Shown: positions 14,455 through 23,000 of the stretch, in pieces
Layout: the number at the start of each line of letters is the position of its first letter
Numbering within the stretch: position 1 is the first letter of the stretch
Assembly (NCBI GenBank): GCA_020073665.1
Contig: JAIQEU010000005.1
Coordinates: 124,001 to 188,000, forward strand
Direction: 5' to 3'
DNA: 64,000 nt
Source: Terriglobia bacterium
Lineage (GTDB): Bacteria > Acidobacteriota > Terriglobia > Terriglobales > Acidobacteriaceae
Notes under the pieces: model-generated
The model's database searches: none
The model's input: only the letters and a program-made list of their open reading frames with translations
What the model was told of the DNA's origin: nothing
Made by a program: the position numbers and the translations under genes

Positions 14455-14937
14455 CTACAGTGGTTGACCACTCCTCAGGCACTGTATCGCTGATCCATCG
14501 TAGTCAGCTTTCAATATGCCAGACTGATCGGAGCAGAATGCTGGCATCCCCGGAAGCAGCGGACTTGCAGTCAAGTGGTACGTTGCGTTCGATCTGTTTC
14601 CGACCGTCGCTTCACAGTCGCGGATCTCAAACATGTATCCGTTGTTCCGACCGCTCGCGATTTTCGAATCGCCCGCAATATCGGCTAACTTACATGTGAA
14701 TCCGATCGCCGGATGAACCTCCGCGAACTTGTTTTCATTAGCCGCTAGAGTCCTCATTGTGCCTATCGCAGAATCAACGTATCCCAAGTTCCGCAACCCT
14801 ACAAAATACCTCACAGCAAGCCAACCTAATCCCCCGACTAGAATTAGTCCCAGGATCGAAAAGAGCACAGGGATCGGCTTCTTTCCCCTCATCGGGGTGA
14901 TCGTGTCTAATTCATTGCGATTGACAAATACCATCAT
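14455..14937 (-). CDS. Single-pass exported protein resembling pilin/pseudopilin-like proteins
   Basis: 160 residues. A short N terminus is followed by a membrane helix ([23 protein letters not shown], about 23-45) and an extracytoplasmic domain with four Cys and segments such as [19 protein letters not shown] and [25 protein letters not shown]. These recall type IV pilin-like proteins of Acidobacteria, although no canonical prepilin peptidase site is seen. The first ATG (14937) overlaps the vapC stop as ATGA, implying translational coupling. An internal ATG at 14892 would also leave a sensible membrane protein. Function not recognised. Confidence 0.62.
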
Positions 14938-15338
14938 CGGAACGGATTTCGAATCGTCAGTTGCCGATTGATTACCTGTCCGTCCTGCAAATCCTCGGAG
15001 TAGAGCGTTTTACAGCCAGCCTCCAGAGCGGCGGAAACGACCAGAGCATCGTAGACGCCATATCCGTACTTCTCTGCGATGGCCACGGCCGCCTTGTGCG
15101 TGTCGAGCGAGATCGGAACTGGGTCGGGGCACAGAATACAAATGGCATCCAACAGCTCTTTTACTTCTTTCCAGGACATATCCAGCTTGCGACGCGCGAC
15201 CGACACGAACTCGTTCAATGATTGAATACTTACAATCCCGCCGCTTGCCAGCAGTGCCTCCGCTTGGGACGCGCGGAGATCATTCTTCGCCACCGCGTAG
15301 ATCAATACGTTTGTATCGAGGAAGTCTTTAGCGGGCAT
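14934..15338 (-). CDS. vapC: PIN-domain ribonuclease toxin, VapC family
   Basis: 134-residue PIN-domain protein expected to cleave RNA when released from its antitoxin. The acidic metal-binding residues are in place: D8 (FLDTNVLIY), E43 (SLNEF), D97 (YDALV) and D116 (SEDLQDG). The ATG at 15338 overlaps the 3' end of the antitoxin gene by 11 nt, which is typical of toxin-antitoxin operons and decides the start over a longer frame. Its stop in turn overlaps the start of a pilin-like gene by 4 nt. Confidence 0.9.
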   Translation of the reverse strand: MPAKDFLDTNVLIYAVAKNDLRASQAEALLASGGIVSIQSLNEFVSVARRKLDMSWKEVKELLDAICILCPDPVPISLDTHKAAVAIAEKYGYGVYDALVVSAALEAGCKTLYSEDLQDGQVINRQLTIRNPFR

Positions 15339-15558
15339 TGGCTTCGGCCCGGTCGAACACAAAGCCCGCGGGCAAAGGACGACGCAGCCGCCGTAAGCGT
15401 TCGAGGGCCCGCTGCCGGGCGGGGTCGCGGCGTACTTCAAATTCGCGCGTGTCGGCTATCCTGATTTCGATCTGGTCGCCCTCTTTCAGGTGGAGTGCTT
15501 CCACAACCTCCGATGGTAGCCGTACCGCTAAACTATTGCCCCACTTTGAGACCTGCAT
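15328..15558 (-). CDS. vapB: AbrB/MazE-type antitoxin, partner of the VapC toxin
   Basis: 76-residue swapped-hairpin AbrB-family DNA-binding antitoxin. It begins MQVSKWGNSLAVRLPSEVVEAL, the standard SpoVT-AbrB/MazE N terminus, continues with LHLKEGDQIEIRI, and has a basic C-terminal tail that would wrap the toxin. The ATG at 15558 has a strong GGAGGT ribosome binding site, so it is preferred to the upstream frame. A 23-bp inverted-repeat operator overlaps the promoter just upstream, fitting autorepression by the VapBC complex. Confidence 0.9.
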   Translation of the reverse strand: MQVSKWGNSLAVRLPSEVVEALHLKEGDQIEIRIADTREFEVRRDPARQRALERLRRLRRPLPAGFVFDRAEANAR

Positions 15559-15664: not shown

Positions 15665-15733
15665 AACTTGCATGAGCTGCATGCGGCATGGCTAAAGCTC
15701 CACACCTTCCCGCGGAGTTCGCCGCGGCACTGC

Positions 15734-16906
15734 TCACGCCAGCGTTTGCACCTCCACACTCAGCACCGCCGGCAAATCTCGCACAATCGGGTTCCAGCTG
15801 TCCCCCGCGTCGGCCGATGCGTACACCTGCCCGCCGGTCGTCCCGAAATAAATGCCGCACTTATCGAGCGAATCCACCGCCATGGCGTCGCGCAGCACGT
15901 TCACGTAGCAGTCTTTTTGAGGGAGGCCTTTGGTGAGCGCTTCCCACTCGTTGCCGCCGCTGCGGCTGCGGTAGACGCGTAGTTTGCCGTCGGGCGGAAA
16001 GTGCTCGCCGTCACTTTTGATTGGGACCACGTAAATCGTCTCGGGCTCGTGGGCGTGCACATCAATGACAAAACCAAAGTCGGTGGGCAAGTTGCCGCTG
16101 ACTTCTTTCCAGTTGTCGCCGGCGTCGTCCGAGCGCATGACGTCCCAGTGCTTCTGCATGAACAGCACGTTTGGGCGCTTGGGATGCATGGCGACGTGGT
16201 GCACGCAGTGTCCGACCTCGGCGTTCGGATCGGGGATGTACTGCGATTTCAGGCCGCGATTGATCGGCTTCCAGGTCTTGCCGCCATCGTCGGTGCGAAA
16301 CGCGCCCGCCGCCGAAATGGCGATGAGCATCCGCTGGGGATTGCTGGGATCGAGAATAATGGTGTGCAGACACATGCCGCCCGCGCCCGGCTGCCACTTG
16401 GGGCCGGTGCCGTGGCCGCGCAGGCCAGGAAGTTCGTGCCAGTTCTCGCCTCCGTCGGTGGAACGGAAGATAGCAGCGTCTTCCACCCCGGCGTACACCA
16501 TGTTGGGGTCGGTGAGCGACGGCTCCAGATGCCACACCCGCTTGAACTCCCACGGATGCTGGGTGCCGTCGTACCACTGGTGCGTGGTCAACGGCTTGGC
16601 GGCCGCGTCGTAAACGAACTTGTTACTGGCGGCCTTCGGAGGTCCTGGAGGTGGTTCCTGTCCGGGCGGCGTTCCCGGCTGGTGCCAGGTTTTGCCGCCG
16701 TCGTCGGAGCGCTGAATGATTTGCCCGAACCAGCCGCTGGTCTGCGAGGCATAAATGCGGTTGGGGTCGGCAGGCGAGCCCTTAAGGTGATACATCTCCC
16801 ATCCAGCGAAATGCGGGCCGCTGACGCTCCAGTTTTGGCGCTTGCCGTCCGACTCCAGAATGAATGCGCCCTTACGTGTACCTGCCAGAACTCGTACCTT
16901 GCTCAT
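15734..16906 (-). CDS. Asp-box (BNR/sialidase-like) beta-propeller protein
   Basis: 390 residues with six Asp-box-like motifs spread through the protein: [45 protein letters not shown] and ASADAGDSW. This predicts a six-bladed propeller of the exo-sialidase/Ycf48-like type. There is no signal peptide ([17 protein letters not shown]), so it is probably cytoplasmic, and sialidase catalytic residues are not evident; it should not be called a sialidase. Family members are commonly listed as WD40/YVTN/BNR-like. A MoaD/ThiS-like gene lies on the same strand downstream, beyond a toxin-antitoxin cassette. Confidence 0.78.
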
Positions 16907-17018
16907 CCTCGCTCCTTCCCAGGTTTTGCAGACCGCATGAATTTACCCTGCAGACGGAATTTTAGTCTAGAGACGGGCCTCAGGCCGCTATAGCCCGCAT
17001 CATTTGGATGCCCGGAGC

Positions 17019-17038
17019 GGCACGGCTGATGCCGTGCC
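17019..17038. repeat. Perfect short hairpin downstream of the DGPF operon
   Basis: GGCACGGC (17019-17026) and GCCGTGCC (17031-17038) form a perfect 8-bp stem with a TGAT loop, 24 bases after the end of the gene ending at 17062. It could be the terminator of the minus-strand operon or a dispersed GC palindrome. No T run follows on either strand. Confidence 0.4.
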
Positions 17039-17061
17039 CTCCCACTCAAGCGATTTAGTTC

Positions 17062-17523
17062 TTAAGCTGCCTTTGTCCCCTGCGCGCGCATCTGCTTTAT
17101 GAACTCGCGCATGGTGGCGATGTGCCCGGGGGAACGCTTTTCGATCCAGGTTTCATATCGCTGGACAGCCTTCTCCATCTCTGCCAGGTACAGCTTGTAG
17201 GCGAATTTCTCGCGGGCATAGGGGACAATCGCCTTGCAGCGCTCCCAGATTCCAAAAAACTCACCGGAGGTCTGGAAGAACAGTTCTTCGTTGAGCAAGC
17301 CGCTGTTGAGCAATGCGCACGCCTGCTCCCAATAGCCGAGGACCATCCCTACAAACGCGCCGCCTTCTGTTCCGGGAGCGGCCAGTCGCATGGCGTCGTC
17401 CAGGTTTTCTACGAAGTAGTTCTTAAAGAACCAATCGCGTGCCTGGCGCAGGCGGGCCTCGCGGCGAAGATCATAGACTTGCAGGTGAAGTTGTGCCTGT
17501 TCGTGTGTCGGTTTCGTTTCCAT
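17062..17523 (-). CDS. Helical protein of unknown function in the DGPF/ECF42 cluster
   Basis: 153 residues, mostly alpha-helical (LRREARLRQARDWFFKNYFVENLDDAMRL..., GYWEQACALLNSGLLNEELFFQT). It resembles DUF4760-type proteins in pattern, but this is not certain. There is no membrane segment. It lies 45 bp after a DGPF-domain gene on the same strand and is probably the last gene of the operon controlled from the promoter near 18400. A part in the ECF42 response is inferred from this position only. Confidence 0.62.
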   Translation of the reverse strand: METKPTHEQAQLHLQVYDLRREARLRQARDWFFKNYFVENLDDAMRLAAPGTEGGAFVGMVLGYWEQACALLNSGLLNEELFFQTSGEFFGIWERCKAIVPYAREKFAYKLYLAEMEKAVQRYETWIEKRSPGHIATMREFIKQMRAQGTKAA

Positions 17524-17568
17524 GATGGTGTGTCTCCTTTTCTATTAGTTCCTTTACGTTTTGCTGAT

Positions 17569-17958
17569 TTAACTGCATTGCGCGCCATTCGGAGAGGTGT
17601 CGAACATCGGACGAATCTCCAACTCACCGTCGTAAGACGGTCCCAGTATGTCGGCGTGGACCTGCATGAACCGGGTTCCCGCCTGGACCGCCTCTTCCTT
17701 CGACTGCAAGTCGAAAATCGCGAAGCCGCCGACCAGTTCCTTGGTTTCCGCGAAGGGGCCATCGACGACCGAGGTTTTTCCTCCCGACACACGAATGCGT
17801 GCGCCCTGCGAACTGGGTAGGAGTCCACCGGCGCTGACCATCACGCCGCGCTGGGTCGCCTCTTCCGCCATTTTCGCGACTGCGGCCATCAACTCGGGCT
17901 TGGGAGGGAGGCCGGCTTCGGATTCCCTGTTCGCCTTTACGATCATCATGAATCGCAT
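17569..17958 (-). CDS. YCII/DGPF-domain protein
   Basis: 129-residue YCII-related (DGPF) protein: MRFMMIVKAN start, the signature VVDGPFAETKELVGGFAIFDL (about 63-83), and a C-terminal strand GELEIRPMFD. These ferredoxin-like dimeric proteins are genomic partners of ECF42 sigma factors, and their biochemical role is unsettled. The 50-bp gap to the upstream DGPF gene lacks the TGTCGA motif, so it is probably cotranscribed with that gene. Confidence 0.85.
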   Translation of the reverse strand: MRFMMIVKANRESEAGLPPKPELMAAVAKMAEEATQRGVMVSAGGLLPSSQGARIRVSGGKTSVVDGPFAETKELVGGFAIFDLQSKEEAVQAGTRFMQVHADILGPSYDGELEIRPMFDTSPNGAQCS

Positions 17959-18008
17959 TCATTACTCTCCTTGAAAAGGTTACGTGCAAAATAAATAGTT
18001 CCGATGGA

Positions 18009-18365
18009 CTAGCTTGTCGGCAGGTCCGGCAGCTCGACCACCGGGCGGATTTCGACGGTGCCTTTGCGCGCGCCTGGAATGCGACCGGCAATGTCGATGG
18101 CCTCGTCGAGGTTCTTGGCGTCAACCATGAAGTAGCCGCCCAACTGCTCGCGCGTCTCCGCGAAAGGACCATCGGTCACCAGACGCTTTCCCTCCCGTAC
18201 CCTGACGCTGGTAGCCGTCGACACCGGCTGCAGCGGAGAGGCGTCCAGGTAATGGCCGTTCTGCTTGAGCGCGTGCGCAAGCTGCGTGGATTCCCCGTAG
18301 CATTGCTCACGCTCGGGCTCGGTCCAGGCTTGCTCGTCGGCGTAAATCAGCAGCATGTATTTCAT
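18009..18365 (-). CDS. YCII/DGPF-domain protein
   Basis: 118 residues, second DGPF protein of the cluster, starting MKYMLLIYADEQAWTEPE with the motif VTDGPFAETREQLGGYFMVD and an ending EIRPVVELPDLP. The ATG at 18365 was chosen because it matches the family N terminus and has a GGAGG ribosome binding site. A candidate ECF42 promoter lies 21-47 bp upstream. The longer in-frame extension runs back across that promoter and is rejected. Confidence 0.87.
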   Translation of the reverse strand: MKYMLLIYADEQAWTEPEREQCYGESTQLAHALKQNGHYLDASPLQPVSTATSVRVREGKRLVTDGPFAETREQLGGYFMVDAKNLDEAIDIAGRIPGARKGTVEIRPVVELPDLPTS

Positions 18366-18385
18366 TTCTGGGCCTCCATCGGTTA

Positions 18386-18412
18386 ATCGAACAGCAGACG
18401 TCAAAATCGACA
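18386..18412 (-). promoter_or_regulatory. Candidate ECF42-dependent promoter (TGTCGA-N17-CGAT), copy 1
   Basis: On the minus strand TGTCGA (18412-18407) is followed after exactly 17 bp by CGAT (18389-18386), and the gene start is 21 bases further. The same two blocks with the same spacing occur before the DGPF gene starting at 18840, and the first spacer bases (TTTkGAC) are shared too. ECF42 sigma factors are reported to use TGTCGA/CGA-type promoters upstream of DGPF genes. Confidence 0.72.
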
Positions 18413-18420
18413 GTTGGCCA

Positions 18421-18840
18421 TCATTTCTTTCTTGCCACCTGGGCGCGCCAACGCTGCTCATTTTCCCTGGACTCAGGGGTGAGCGAGGGGCCGAGGTCCT
18501 CCAGCTCGAACACTTGGCGAATCTCGACTTCAGTCCCCTCATCAAACGGAGCGCGCTTGAGCCACTCGATTGCTTCTTCCTTCGACTTCACTTTCCACAT
18601 CCAGAAGCCGCCGATGAGTTCTTTGGTCTCCGCGAAGGGGCCGTCGATTACCGTCCGCTTCCCACCGAAGAACTTTACGCGCGCACCTTTGGAACTCGCG
18701 TGCAGCCCCTCGGCTGCGAGCATCACGCCAGCCTTTACCAGTTCTTCGTTGAACTTCGCCATCGCGGTGAGAAGCTCCTTGCTGGGGAGAAGGCCTGCCT
18801 CCGAGTCCTTGCTTGCCTTGACTATCACCATGACCCGCAT
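18421..18840 (-). CDS. YCII/DGPF-domain protein
   Basis: 139 residues, third DGPF protein: MRVMVIVKASKDSEAG start, motif VIDGPFAETKELIGGFWMW, and a charged C-terminal extension ending RWRAQVARKK. It lies nearest to the divergent sigma-factor gene and has its own candidate ECF42 promoter 53-79 bp upstream of the ATG. It is closely similar to the 129-residue copy, suggesting a local duplication. Function of the family is not established. Confidence 0.86.
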   Translation of the reverse strand: MRVMVIVKASKDSEAGLLPSKELLTAMAKFNEELVKAGVMLAAEGLHASSKGARVKFFGGKRTVIDGPFAETKELIGGFWMWKVKSKEEAIEWLKRAPFDEGTEVEIRQVFELEDLGPSLTPESRENEQRWRAQVARKK

Positions 18841-18892
18841 GATCTCCGTCTCCTTTGGTTGGAAGCTCCTGTTTGGATGCCTCTATGGGTAA

Positions 18893-18919
18893 ATCGGATG
18901 AAGGAAGTCCAAATCGACA
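18893..18919 (-). promoter_or_regulatory. Candidate ECF42-dependent promoter (TGTCGA-N17-CGAT), copy 2
   Basis: On the minus strand TGTCGA (18919-18914) and CGAT (18896-18893) are separated by 17 bp in the divergent spacer between the sigma gene and the DGPF gene. It points toward the DGPF genes and not toward the sigma gene, so the sigma factor does not seem to be autoregulated through this motif. Confidence 0.72.
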
Positions 18920-18948
18920 CCTCACCGCAAGAAATTTACAATCAATAG

Positions 18949-20205
18949 ATGTCGTTGGATGCCACTCAGGCTGTGGAAGAAGTTTACCGAGAAGATTGGG
19001 GCCGGATTGTTGCTGCCCTCATCAGCCTGGTCGACGACTTCGACTTGGCCGAAGAATCTGCCCAGGAGGCCTTCGCCGCTGCTGTAGACCAATGGCGAGA
19101 ATCGGGCGTGCCGGAGTTTCCGCGCGCCTGGATCATCTCTACCGCCCGGCACAAGGCCATCGACCGCATCCGGCGCAAAGTTCGGTTCGAGGAGAAACTG
19201 GAATCGTACGCCAGCAGCGGCCTGGTCCGCACCGTGGAAGAGCCGGACTACGACACCGGTGAGATCCCCGACGACCGTCTTCGCCTGGTCTTCACCTGCT
19301 GCCACCCGGCGCTGGCCCCGGACGCGCAAGTGGCACTGACCCTGCGCACCTTGTGCGGGCTGGAGACCGACGAGATTGCGCGCGCGTTTCTGGCACCCCC
19401 GACGACCATGGCGCAGCGACTGGTGCGCGCCAAGCGCAAGATTCGGGACGCAGGCATTCCGTACGTGGTGCCCGAGACCAGTGACATGGCCGCACGGCTC
19501 GACGCTGTGCTGACCGTAATCTACCTGGTTTTCAACGAAGGTTACGCAGCCACTCGCGGTGGACCGCTGGTGAGGACGGACCTGTGCGCCGAAGCCATTC
19601 GCCTGGGACGCCTGGTCAGGTCGCTGATGGCGCCGCAGCCTCCGGCCGAAGCTACTGCGCTGCTGGCGCTCATGCTGCTTCACGACGCCCGCCGCGATGC
19701 CCGCATCGATGAGGCCGGCGATCTGGTCACTCTCGAAGAACAGGATCGCAGCCGCTGGAACCAAGCACAGATCGCCGAGGCGTTGCCGCTCGTGACAGAG
19801 GCGTTTCGTGGCGGCGTCGGGCCATTTGCTCTGCAGGCAGCGATTTCAGCGGTGCATTGCCAGGCATCGCGCCCCGAAGACACGGACTGGCCGCAGATCG
19901 TCCTGCTGTACAACCTCCTTGAGCGCATGCAGCCATCGCCCATCGTGTCGCTGAACCGTGCAGTAGCGGTTGCGATGATGGAGGGCCCGCAGACCGGGCT
20001 CGCACTGATCGATCAACTGGCCGCAACCAACCATCTCGACAACTATCACCTGCTGCATGCCGCGCGTGCCGATCTGCTGCGGCGAATCGGGTCCGCAGAA
20101 GAAGCGGCGGAGAGCTACAAGCGAGCACTCGAGTTGGCCACCAATGACAGCGAGCGCCGATTCCTTGAGCGCCGCCTGCGCGAGGTTCAGTCGCCGGCCG
20201 CCTGA
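18949..20205 (+). CDS. ECF sigma factor of the ECF42 type with C-terminal helical extension
   Basis: 418 residues, much longer than the usual 170-200 of ECF sigma factors. Region 2 lies at about 12-80 (RIVAALISLVDDFDLAEESAQEAFAAA, FPRAWIISTARHKAIDRIRR). Region 4 is at about 110-165 (LTLRTLCGLETDEIARAFLAPPTTMAQRLVRAKRKI). A TPR-like extension of about 230 residues (DUF6596-like, NEGYAATRGGPLVRTDLCAEAIRLGRL onward) ends in FLERRLRE. No anti-sigma gene is nearby; in this group the C-terminal extension is thought to control activity. It is divergent from three DGPF genes carrying TGTCGA-N17-CGAT promoters. Confidence 0.92.
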   Translation: MSLDATQAVEEVYREDWGRIVAALISLVDDFDLAEESAQEAFAAAVDQWRESGVPEFPRAWIISTARHKAIDRIRRKVRFEEKLESYASSGLVRTVEEPDYDTGEIPDDRLRLVFTCCHPALAPDAQVALTLRTLCGLETDEIARAFLAPPTTMAQRLVRAKRKIRDAGIPYVVPETSDMAARLDAVLTVIYLVFNEGYAATRGGPLVRTDLCAEAIRLGRLVRSLMAPQPPAEATALLALMLLHDARRDARIDEAGDLVTLEEQDRSRWNQAQIAEALPLVTEAFRGGVGPFALQAAISAVHCQASRPEDTDWPQIVLLYNLLERMQPSPIVSLNRAVAVAMMEGPQTGLALIDQLAATNHLDNYHLLHAARADLLRRIGSAEEAAESYKRALELATNDSERRFLERRLREVQSPAA

Positions 20206-20242: not shown

Positions 20243-22903
20243 TCATAGCTGCACTTTCCGCAAGCGCAGCGAGTTGGTGATCACCGAAACTGAGCTGAAG
20301 CTCATGGCCGCCGCGGCCAATATTGGGCTCAGCAGAATTCCGAACAGCGGGTACAGCACGCCCGCCGCCACCGGCACTCCCGCAGAGTTGTAGATGAAAG
20401 CGAAGAACAGGTTCTGGCGGATGTTGCGCATGGTGGCGCGGCTGAGTTTGCGAGCGCGTACGATCCCGGCCAAATCGCCCTTCACCAAGGTCACGCCGCC
20501 GCTCTCCATCGCGACGTCGGTGCCTGTGCCCATGGCGATGCCCACGTGCGCCTGCGCCAGCGCCGGAGCGTCGTTGATGCCGTCGCCCGCCATGGCCACT
20601 ACCCGGCCTTCTTTCTGCAGCCGCCGGATTACCTCGGATTTTTTTCCGGGCAGGACTTCCGCTTCAAACTTTTCAATCCCCAACTGGCGCGCCACCGCCG
20701 CGGCTGTGGCGCGACTGTCGCCAGTGAGCATCACGATACGCAGGCCTTCCGCTCTCAAGTCGCGCAGCGCCTGCGGCGTGGTCGTCTTGACCGGATCGGC
20801 AATGCCGATTAGTCCTGCCGGACGTCCGTCCAAAGCCACGAACACGACAGTTTTTCCGTCAAGGCGCATGGCCTCAGCCTGAGGCAACAAAGTGTCCACG
20901 GCCACTCCGGAGTCGGCCAATAACTTCTCGTTTCCGGCGGTTACCGACTTGCCGTCCACCTTGCCGCGAACTCCACCTCCGGTTACGGACTGAAACTCGC
21001 TCGCACTCGCCATCGCAAGTCCGTTTTCTTTCGCTGCCGCCACGATGGCGGCCCCCAGCGGATGTTCGCTTCCCTGCTCCAAGCTGGCCACCAGGCGCAC
21101 TAGTTCGGAATCGATCACACCGCCGGCGGTCACAACCGTTTCCACGCTGGGTCTTCCTTCGGTTAGGGTTCCGGTCTTGTCGACCACCAGGGTGTCTACT
21201 TTTTCCAGGACTTCCAGCGCCTCCGCGTTCTTGATCAGCACTCCGGCATGGGCGCCGCGCCCCGTTCCCACCATGATGGCCATCGGGGTTGCCAGGCCTA
21301 GCGCGCAAGGACACGCGATGATCAGCACCGCCACGGCGTTGACCAGCGCGTGCGCCAGACGCGGCTCCGGCCCGAGGAAACTCCACGCGATGAACGTCAC
21401 CACCGCGATTCCGATCACTGCCGGTACAAACCATCCTGCCACTCGGTCGGCCAGTCGCTGAATCGGAGCCCGGCTGCGTTGGGCCTGGCTCACCAACCGC
21501 ACGATCTGCGCCAGCAGGGTCTCACTGCCTACATGCTCAGCCTGCATGATGAACGACCCGGTCCCGTTGACCGTCGCCCCAATCACGTGGCTGCGGGCTT
21601 CCTTGCGCACCGGCATCGACTCGCCCGTGATCATCGATTCGTCAATGGCACTGCTGCCTTCAAGCACCATGCCGTCCACGGGCACCTTTTCACCGGGCCG
21701 TACTCGCAGCCGGTCTCCCTTTTGCACCTGCTCCAAGCGAATGTCCTCTTCCCGCCCATCGCGCAGCAAGCGTGCTGTCTTGGGAGTCAAGTCCAGCAGC
21801 GCGCGGATCGCCGCCCCGGTGCGGCTGCGGGCTCGCAACTCCAGGACTTGCCCCATCAGCACCAGTGTGGTGATCGCCGCGGCCGCCTCGAAATACACTG
21901 GCACGGTGCCGCTCACCTCGCGGAACGCGGAAGGAAAAACCTGCGGCGCAATCGTTGCCACCAGGCTGTACGAGTAAGCCACCCCCGTGCCCATGGCAAT
22001 GAGGGTGAACATGTTGGTGGAGCGGTTCACCACCGAAGCCCATCCGCGCTGAAAGAACGGCCACCCGCCCCAGAGCACCACGGGCGTGGCCAACACCAGT
22101 TCCAGCCACGGCAGCCAGCCGTCTTGCAAGGCGTGTTGCACCGGCATACCCGGCAGCATGTCCGCCATGGCGACGGCCAGCAGCGGCAAGGTCAGCGCCG
22201 CGCTAATCCACAAGCGCCGCGTCATGTCTGTCAGCTCAGGATTCTCTTCAGCTGCCGCCGCTACCGTGCGTGGTTCGAGCGCCATCCCGCAAATAGGGCA
22301 CGTCCCCGGCCCCGGACGCAGCACTTCCGGATGCATCGGGCAGGTGTACTCAACCCGCGTGGTGGCAACGGGCGTCTCGGGTTCGAGGGCCATGCCGCAA
22401 CTTGGGCACGCCACGGCCTTGGTCTCACGCACTTCCGGACACATGGGGCAAACGTAGGCGGGCTGAGCGAGGACCGTACTCACAGCTCGCGACGCGCGAC
22501 CTGGCCCCTGCGCAGGCTTCGCAGTTGGCCCGCCGAGGTACTGTTCAGGTTTTTCCCGAAACTTCCCCAGGCAGCCTGCGCTGCAAAAATAGTAGGTCTT
22601 TCCCGAGTAGTTGGATTTGTACTTCGCCGCGGCGGGATCTACGTCCATCCCGCATACCGGGTCTTTCGCTTTGGAACCGGCTGCGGGCTTGGCGGCTCCC
22701 AGCATAACCAGGCCAGGGGCCACAGATTGCGGCGGGTTCAGATACTTCTGCGGATCAGCTCTAAACTTCTCCGCGCAGTGGCCGCAGCAGAAGTAATAGG
22801 TTTTTCCCGCCTGATCGGCCTTGTGCTTTGCGGTCGCCGGGTCAACGGTCATCCCGCACACTGGATCTTTTACTGCCGTCGCGGACTTATGAGAGCTTTC
22901 CAT
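20243..22903 (-). CDS. copA: Copper/silver-type P1B ATPase with YHS and metal-binding domains
   Basis: 886-residue heavy-metal exporting ATPase. N-terminal half: two YHS domains ([11 protein letters not shown] near 12 and [11 protein letters not shown] near 81), then two Cys-rich metal-binding segments (YVCPMCPEV...[10 protein letters not shown] and YTCPMHPEV...[10 protein letters not shown]). The ATPase core has the transmembrane metal site [11 protein letters not shown] (CPC type, Cu+/Ag+), the phosphorylation site [25 protein letters not shown], and the hinge [23 protein letters not shown]. There is no N-terminal HMA domain. A small HMA-like protein is encoded divergently beside it. The ATG at 22903 starts the conserved part; upstream in-frame sequence is not conserved in character. 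Confidence 0.93.
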
Positions 22904-23000
22904 AGTGGTGTTGCGGCCAGCCGTGGCCGACCACAACCATATTAGATTCCCGGACGTGCCCCGTCGATTGTTGTATCTTGGAAGCAGAGGCAAAGCAGAA

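Follow-up and report, generated by a model that had tools for sequence, protein, structure and literature searches.

How a sigma factor of the extracytoplasmic function (ECF) type ECF42 is kept within limits, and which genes it serves, are the questions raised by a locus within a 64,000-nucleotide stretch of a Terriglobia bacterium genome (GenBank assembly GCA_020073665.1, contig JAIQEU010000005.1, positions 124,001 to 188,000; hereafter the window), in which a sigma gene lies divergent from three genes of the YCII/DGPF family. ECF42 factors are widespread and, to our knowledge, no anti-sigma factor is known for them; no anti-sigma gene was found beside this sigma gene, the nearest genes scanned encoding YCII proteins, a DUF4760 protein, a BNR-repeat protein and a P-type ATPase. 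The ECF42-type promoter of YCII gene 1 (P1) and a sigma70-type promoter match in front of the sigma gene share one -35 hexamer, a geometry that recurs in other ECF42 loci. We consider it probable that the locus forms a one-component ECF42 regulon in which the two promoters, through this hexamer, would exclude each other and establish a negative feedback on the sigma gene.

Predicted back-to-back promoters of the sigma gene and YCII gene 1

The sigma protein matches the Pfam families Sigma70_r2 (PF04542), Sigma70_r4_2 (PF08281) and, at residues 183-285, DUF6596 (PF20239). We take DUF6596 to be the marker of ECF42, and its single match in the own genome (5.4 Mb in 62 contigs, searched for all counts and models given for this genome) is the sigma gene; comparison among loci likewise bore out the ECF42 identity proposed in an earlier note on this DNA. 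The gene layout given in that note held in all coordinates and with YCII in all three divergent genes, and the extension it described as resembling tetratricopeptide repeats (TPR) is present as an extension, running beyond DUF6596 to residue 418, with all TPR models short of E 0.01; in ECF42 factors such an extension typically has about 200 residues and is rich in TPR. The closest match of the protein among the best 80 of 587 named loci is 81% identical and belongs to a Terriglobia (Acidobacteriota) assembly (L222).

On the opposite strand, the TCGACA at 18914-18919 reads TGTCGA, the -35 hexamer of P1, and thus six base pairs are common to both promoters (Table 1). The hexamer fits in both directions, with CGAT at 17 nt on one side and TACAAT at 17 nt on the other, and the sigma ATG follows TACAAT after 6 nt, predicting a leaderless mRNA. 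The sigma gene had been described as devoid of the motif; this is correct for the ECF42 motif, but the gene does have a sigma70-type promoter match, with the -35 box in common.

Table 1. Genes and promoters of the ECF42 locus and its distant target; coordinates are those of the window unless a contig is named.
Feature	Coordinates	Strand	Description
ECF42-type sigma factor	18949..20205	+	418 aa; sigma2, sigma4, DUF6596 and C-terminal extension
Sigma70-type promoter match of sigma gene	18914..18942	+	TCGACA (18914-18919), N17, TACAAT (18937-18942)
ECF42 promoter P1 (predicted)	18893..18919	-	TGTCGA (18914-18919), N17, CGAT (18893-18896); before YCII gene 1
YCII/DGPF gene 1	18421..18840	-	139 aa; Pfam YCII
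ECF42 promoter P2 (predicted)	18386..18412	-	TGTCGA, N17, CGAT; before YCII gene 2
YCII/DGPF gene 2	18009..18365	-	ATG at 18365; Pfam YCII
YCII/DGPF gene 3	17569..17958	-	129 aa; Pfam YCII
DUF4760 gene	17062..17523	-	153 aa; Pfam DUF4760, all-helical in low-confidence model
Distant fourth YCII gene	G000 contig C6, L084 5236-5655		no sigma gene beside; N17 ECF42 site

From this arrangement we propose that housekeeping (sigma70-type) polymerase would produce the leaderless sigma mRNA, and that the C-terminal extension of the factor may act in place of an anti-sigma factor. Once active, ECF42 would direct RNA polymerase to three TGTCGA-N17-CGAT promoters, with P1 serving YCII gene 1, P2 serving YCII genes 2 and 3 and the DUF4760 gene, and a distant promoter serving a fourth YCII gene. 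Because P1 and the sigma-gene promoter use one -35 hexamer, only one holoenzyme would be accommodated at a time; active ECF42 polymerase on the hexamer would shut out the housekeeping polymerase and so limit sigma synthesis. Once one direction of a bidirectional promoter has been activated, according to the excerpt of PMC12825309 that we draw on, transcription in the other direction is constrained, and a polymerase on such a promoter keeps the opposing one out; by the same exclusion at a shared element, ECF42 activity should limit sigma synthesis. The same excerpt states that, at the five bidirectional promoters tested in Escherichia coli, basal activity was too low for competition. Both holoenzymes might accordingly use the shared -35 box without repression, at low occupancy and with mere coupling, the box saving space or fixing a ratio. 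The low basal activity that prevented competition at the tested promoters speaks for this; we nevertheless regard it as rather unlikely, since opposed transcription was constrained after one direction had been activated, and active ECF42 should create that condition.

Recurrence of the geometry in other ECF42 loci

With the sigma protein as query, 181 of 397 genomes of the order gave a match at E 1e-60. The stretches taken comprised 79 of the listed order matches and one orphan YCII gene, together with the best 80 of 587 confirmed named-genome loci. Divergent loci, defined by a divergent ECF42 site at most 150 bp from the sigma start, amounted to 32 of the 160 ECF42 loci, or 30 without two duplicates. 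A TAnnnT hexamer (at least 4/6 to TATAAT) stands 16-19 nt past TCGACA in 23 of these 30; 500 mononucleotide shuffles averaged 1.9 and never exceeded 6. When the hexamer was sought by its distance to the start codon (4-9 nt downstream), it was found in 24 of the 30, with TCGACA lying 17-19 nt before it in 22 of them; among 126 other loci, which lack the divergent site by definition, such a -10 occurs in 8 and TCGACA in none. A -10 on the opposite side was found in 0 of 30, a control that is weak since CGAY already occupies that place. The first ten spacer bases display a mean identity of 0.33 among the 22 loci, near chance. These loci include Acidobacteriota, Myxococcota and one bin labelled Bordetella (Pseudomonadota); in the last of these (L161), the label, Bordetella parapertussis, is doubtful, and the locus is 71% identical to that of the window.

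A quick tree built from 155 sigma proteins needs at least 7 changes of the shared-box label, compared with 17-22 when the labels are shuffled 200 times; restricted to the 30 divergent loci, the label clusters only loosely (5 changes, where shuffling gives 7.1 on average). Judging by this tree, the geometry is a long-kept feature and not 22 independent events.

The complete pattern, TCGACA-N16-19-TANAAT-N5-6-RTG, has a single match in the own genome, which lies at the sigma gene, and its reversed control also one, elsewhere; across 298 genomes of the order there were 36 matches, six of them at ECF42 sigma genes, against 10 for the reversed control. Among the others, TCGACA-N17-TACAAT-N5-ATG precedes a different gene in nine relatives (L279-L287), which were picked for sequence likeness; because the same promoter pattern precedes another gene there, TCGACA is probably usable as a -35 element in this lineage. 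The proteins of these nine genes have 167-187 residues and, by eye, similar hydrophobic N-terminal parts, and are probably membrane-anchored; their promoters look leaderless.

Several points weigh against the shared box as a working promoter element, in addition to the low basal activity of the E. coli promoters. A promoter scan of 15700-19000 gave 2 sigma70-like sites, one of them the TCGACA/TACAAT match, with 0.7 expected from shuffles, and TCGACA is one base off TTGACA. The identity of 0.78 among the -10 hexamers of the 22 loci partly reflects the selection criterion TA...T, and the 22 loci are not independent because they are related on the sigma tree (7 changes). Eight of the 30 divergent loci lack the full arrangement, both cyanobacterial loci among them: L090 (spacing 31), L155 and L160 (cyanobacteria), L156, L159, L188 (has a -10, with the start codon 12 nt further on), L252 and L258. 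The scan count, the relatedness of the loci and the low basal activity in E. coli would suit an ordinary ECF42-DGPF module in which TCGACA/TACAAT arose by chance where the intergenic region is compact, the sigma gene depends on an unrelated or weak promoter, and no competition takes place; moreover, the TCGA core is palindromic, so any ECF42 -35 box yields TCGACA on the opposite strand. We nevertheless find such an accident quite unlikely: a palindromic core is set against correctly spaced TAnnnT sequences far in excess of the shuffles, boxes that are kept while the spacer between them is not, and a whole pattern found only once in the own genome.

The predicted regulon and the spacer classes of relatives

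The earlier note had assigned an ECF42 promoter, of TGTCGA/CGA type, to two DGPF genes. Both TGTCGA-N17-CGATT sequences are exact on the minus strand, with a spacer of 17 and a T after each CGAT, and they conform to TGTCGA / CGA[TC], which we take to be the published ECF42 target promoter motif. By count alone the pair is only suggestive: TGTCGAN{16,18}CGAT matches the window twice where 0.38 matches are expected on average, and 2 or more occurred in 6 of 100 shuffles. The whole genome holds 58 matches, spacer 17 (13 matches) not being the commonest, and exact pattern counts were therefore rejected as sole proof. The 13 matches of TGTCGA-N17-CGAT include three that precede YCII genes, and the remaining ten fall within open reading frames no shorter than 110 aa; these ten, with spacer 17, are the part of the 55 matches away from the three YCII promoters whose placement was checked.

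Because the pattern counts are weak, the promoter case rests on comparison, which bore out the assignment, control by ECF42 being predicted from it. Sites (TGTCGN-N14-19-CG[AT][CT], at most 220 bp upstream of a YCII gene) were counted in 123 stretches, namely 41 order loci including the window, 80 named loci and two with YCII only, two duplicate loci included. An upstream site was found for 104 of the 185 YCII genes. As controls, the opposite strand yielded 15 sites, because the TGTCGA core is palindromic, and reversed sequence 6. The spacers of 110 sites measured 17 in 73, 16 in 32, 18 in 2 and 19 in 3. The sequence TTTkGAC, described as conserved after TGTCGA, is common to P1 and P2 only; across the 52 N17 sites that relatives provide, T is common at all three positions (42, 36 and 37/52), as is G at the fifth spacer position (36/52), but the A (11) and C (21) are not.

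A promoter model (R1; 30 columns, 50 sites) was built from the 52 different N17 sites before YCII genes in the 79 order loci, with no own-genome sites and with the weak sites L261 and L268 left out. It gave four own-genome matches at E 10 or less, of which the top three are the YCII promoters P2 (22.1 bits, E 0.001), P1 (16.2 bits, E 0.08) and a distant site at C6:21235-21263 (15.4 bits, E 0.15); the fourth, at C6:151983 (12.8 bits, E 1.0), was rejected as partial, its -35 box lacking the first bases. The distant site lies 33 nt upstream of the ATG of a fourth YCII gene, on contig C6 and so on another contig than the sigma gene, which together with the three in the window makes up the YCII matches of the genome, and all four stand either directly behind a site or inside the P2 gene row. 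Its protein is 84% identical to that of L266, which also has an N17 site and no sigma gene within the 7.6 kb examined, and 64-79% identical to YCII proteins whose genes immediately precede that of another ECF42 sigma in L101, L102 and L104-L108, a factor 57-61% identical to that of the window. The distant gene may thus be a target that a different ECF42 module has lost or from which it was relocated, and the predicted regulon comprises three promoters, four YCII genes and DUF4760.

This regulon has to be set against the 81 of 185 YCII genes without a site, the 42 of 155 loci without any, and the E values of P1 and of the distant site. Furthermore, only 150 of 2726 first-look candidates were scored in the R1 scan, and the training sites were chosen by the cores TGTCGA and CG[AT][CT] named in the earlier note, so that the model is not wholly independent of it.

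P2 is likely the promoter of a YCII-YCII-DUF4760 operon, as the note had suggested for a second promoter and an unknown helical gene; the latter has a Pfam match and belongs to DUF4760, a known family of unknown function. The genes of this row lie on one strand with gaps of 50 and 45 bp, and a simple scan of its minus strand found no terminator-like site. The inclusion of DUF4760 is supported more thinly, by the likeness of the ECF42-linked copies, and is limited to few of the 163 stretches scanned: whole copies were found in the window, L085, L095 (duplicate L158) and L097 only, those of L085, L095 and L097 being 59-69% identical to the window copy, where no other copy in the 31 stretches under comparison exceeds 39%, and L088 holds a DUF4760 fragment. 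That DUF4760 and YCII gene 3 escape sigma control, through an own promoter or an earlier end of the P2 transcript, would agree with the family being present in 244 of 298 genomes of the order and whole beside ECF42 in only four distinct loci, but we judge it improbable given the short, terminator-free gaps on one strand and the greater likeness of the ECF42-linked copies. The predicted DUF4760 structure has a mean predicted local distance difference test score of 59.8 from a two-sequence input, and a sequence search against solved structures gave one match (E 0.22). A tandem DUF4760 pair lies on G000 contig C31 (20795-21731; L081), another contig than the ECF42 locus.

The promoters of relatives fall into two spacer classes. 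In order loci, the spacer-16 class reads TGTCGATTTTCC...ACGACTAT (28 sites) and the spacer-17 class TGTCGAT...GTTCGA[CT] (52 sites), differing in the bases beside the -10 (L085-L123, L154-L273). On the sigma tree, spacer class changes 10 times, compared with 26-34 in 200 shuffles (36 rows N16 and 72 N17; 42 unlabelled and 5 mixed of 155 left out). Among the genomes with two labelled clusters, 11 of 13 hold both classes, three of the 11 (G203, G287, G130) depending on a weak site (L261, L264, L268). As ECF factors reportedly need a rigid spacer, according to the excerpt of PMC6411747 considered here, the 16/17 difference may matter, and a single base pair could prevent cross-talk between two ECF42 factors in the same cell. 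Selection for insulation by spacer length was discarded as a conclusion, considering the weak sites in those three genomes, the 5 of 155 mixed loci, and pairs mostly drawn from different clades; no alignment column or linker length of the sigma proteins cleanly splits the 16 and 17 classes. Only tentatively do we extend the shared-hexamer reading to a conserved two-sigma switch, in which ECF42 and the housekeeping sigma would use one -35 hexamer on opposite strands for repressor-free negative autoregulation, with the 16/17 spacer classes as insulation. Mixed spacers (15 or 16 beside 17) occur at YCII sites of L090, L252, L254 and L258 and could mean dual control.

Regarding the surroundings of the locus, the sigma gene adjoins that of a P-type metal ATPase (20243-22993, minus strand), which contains two YHS stretches and two of the heavy-metal-binding kind. 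Downstream of DUF4760 lies a BNR/sortilin-repeat protein gene (15734-16906, minus strand), for which co-transcription is possible; between the two, a perfect 8-bp inverted repeat without a T run was seen by eye at 17019-17038, and relatives of the protein (81-90% identical) occur near the ECF42 cluster in L085, L087, L088 and L092. A PIN-domain protein with a MazE/AbrB-type partner (14934-15558, minus strand) is a likely toxin-antitoxin pair. In ten relatives' clusters scanned, other proteins included PhnB/glyoxalase-like, DUF899, DoxX-like, RibD_C, DUF1428 and DinB.

Relation to known systems

The module is known in kind and was rightly recognised in the earlier note, which overlooked both the -35 box common to the two promoters and the YCII target lying at a distance; the box is provisionally the new part of the system, no report of one for an ECF factor having been found in limited searches of an open-access library. 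If the proposal is true, the box would provide a concrete way for an ECF42 factor to limit itself without a regulator, with two sigma factors competing for it in opposite directions. Similarly, the predicted regulon, with its YCII genes, one of them distant, and DUF4760, constitutes a small target set useful toward the function of DGPF proteins.

Among characterized ECF42 factors, Sven_0747 of Streptomyces venezuelae and ECF-10 of Pseudomonas putida presumably have a TGTCGA-type promoter as well. As far as the excerpt of PMC8999054 goes, they share with the window factor the sigma2-sigma4 architecture, an extension of about 200 residues, a YCII neighbour and no anti-sigma, and in ECF42 factors the C-terminal extension is required, control being exerted perhaps by an interaction partner, possibly the YCII protein. 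The window differs from both in its divergent layout, the sigma promoter that shares the -35 of a target, the distant orphan YCII target and the DUF4760 gene in the row. RpoE10 of Sinorhizobium meliloti, also an ECF42 factor, resembles the window factor in having TGTCGG-N17-CGTC at its two targets (spacer counted from the published table) and a target operon on another replicon, comparable to the distant target here; its self-activation is not evident, and a shared box is not described, in the excerpt of that source (PMC6180224). In contrast to the window, the YCII gene there precedes rpoE10, and the two are presumably cotranscribed (PMC6180224, same excerpt). Finally, the excerpt on E. coli bidirectional promoters describes one DNA element serving mutually exclusive opposed polymerases (PMC12825309), as predicted here from sequence; those promoters share their -10, whereas the window locus would share its -35, and would do so between two different sigma factors.

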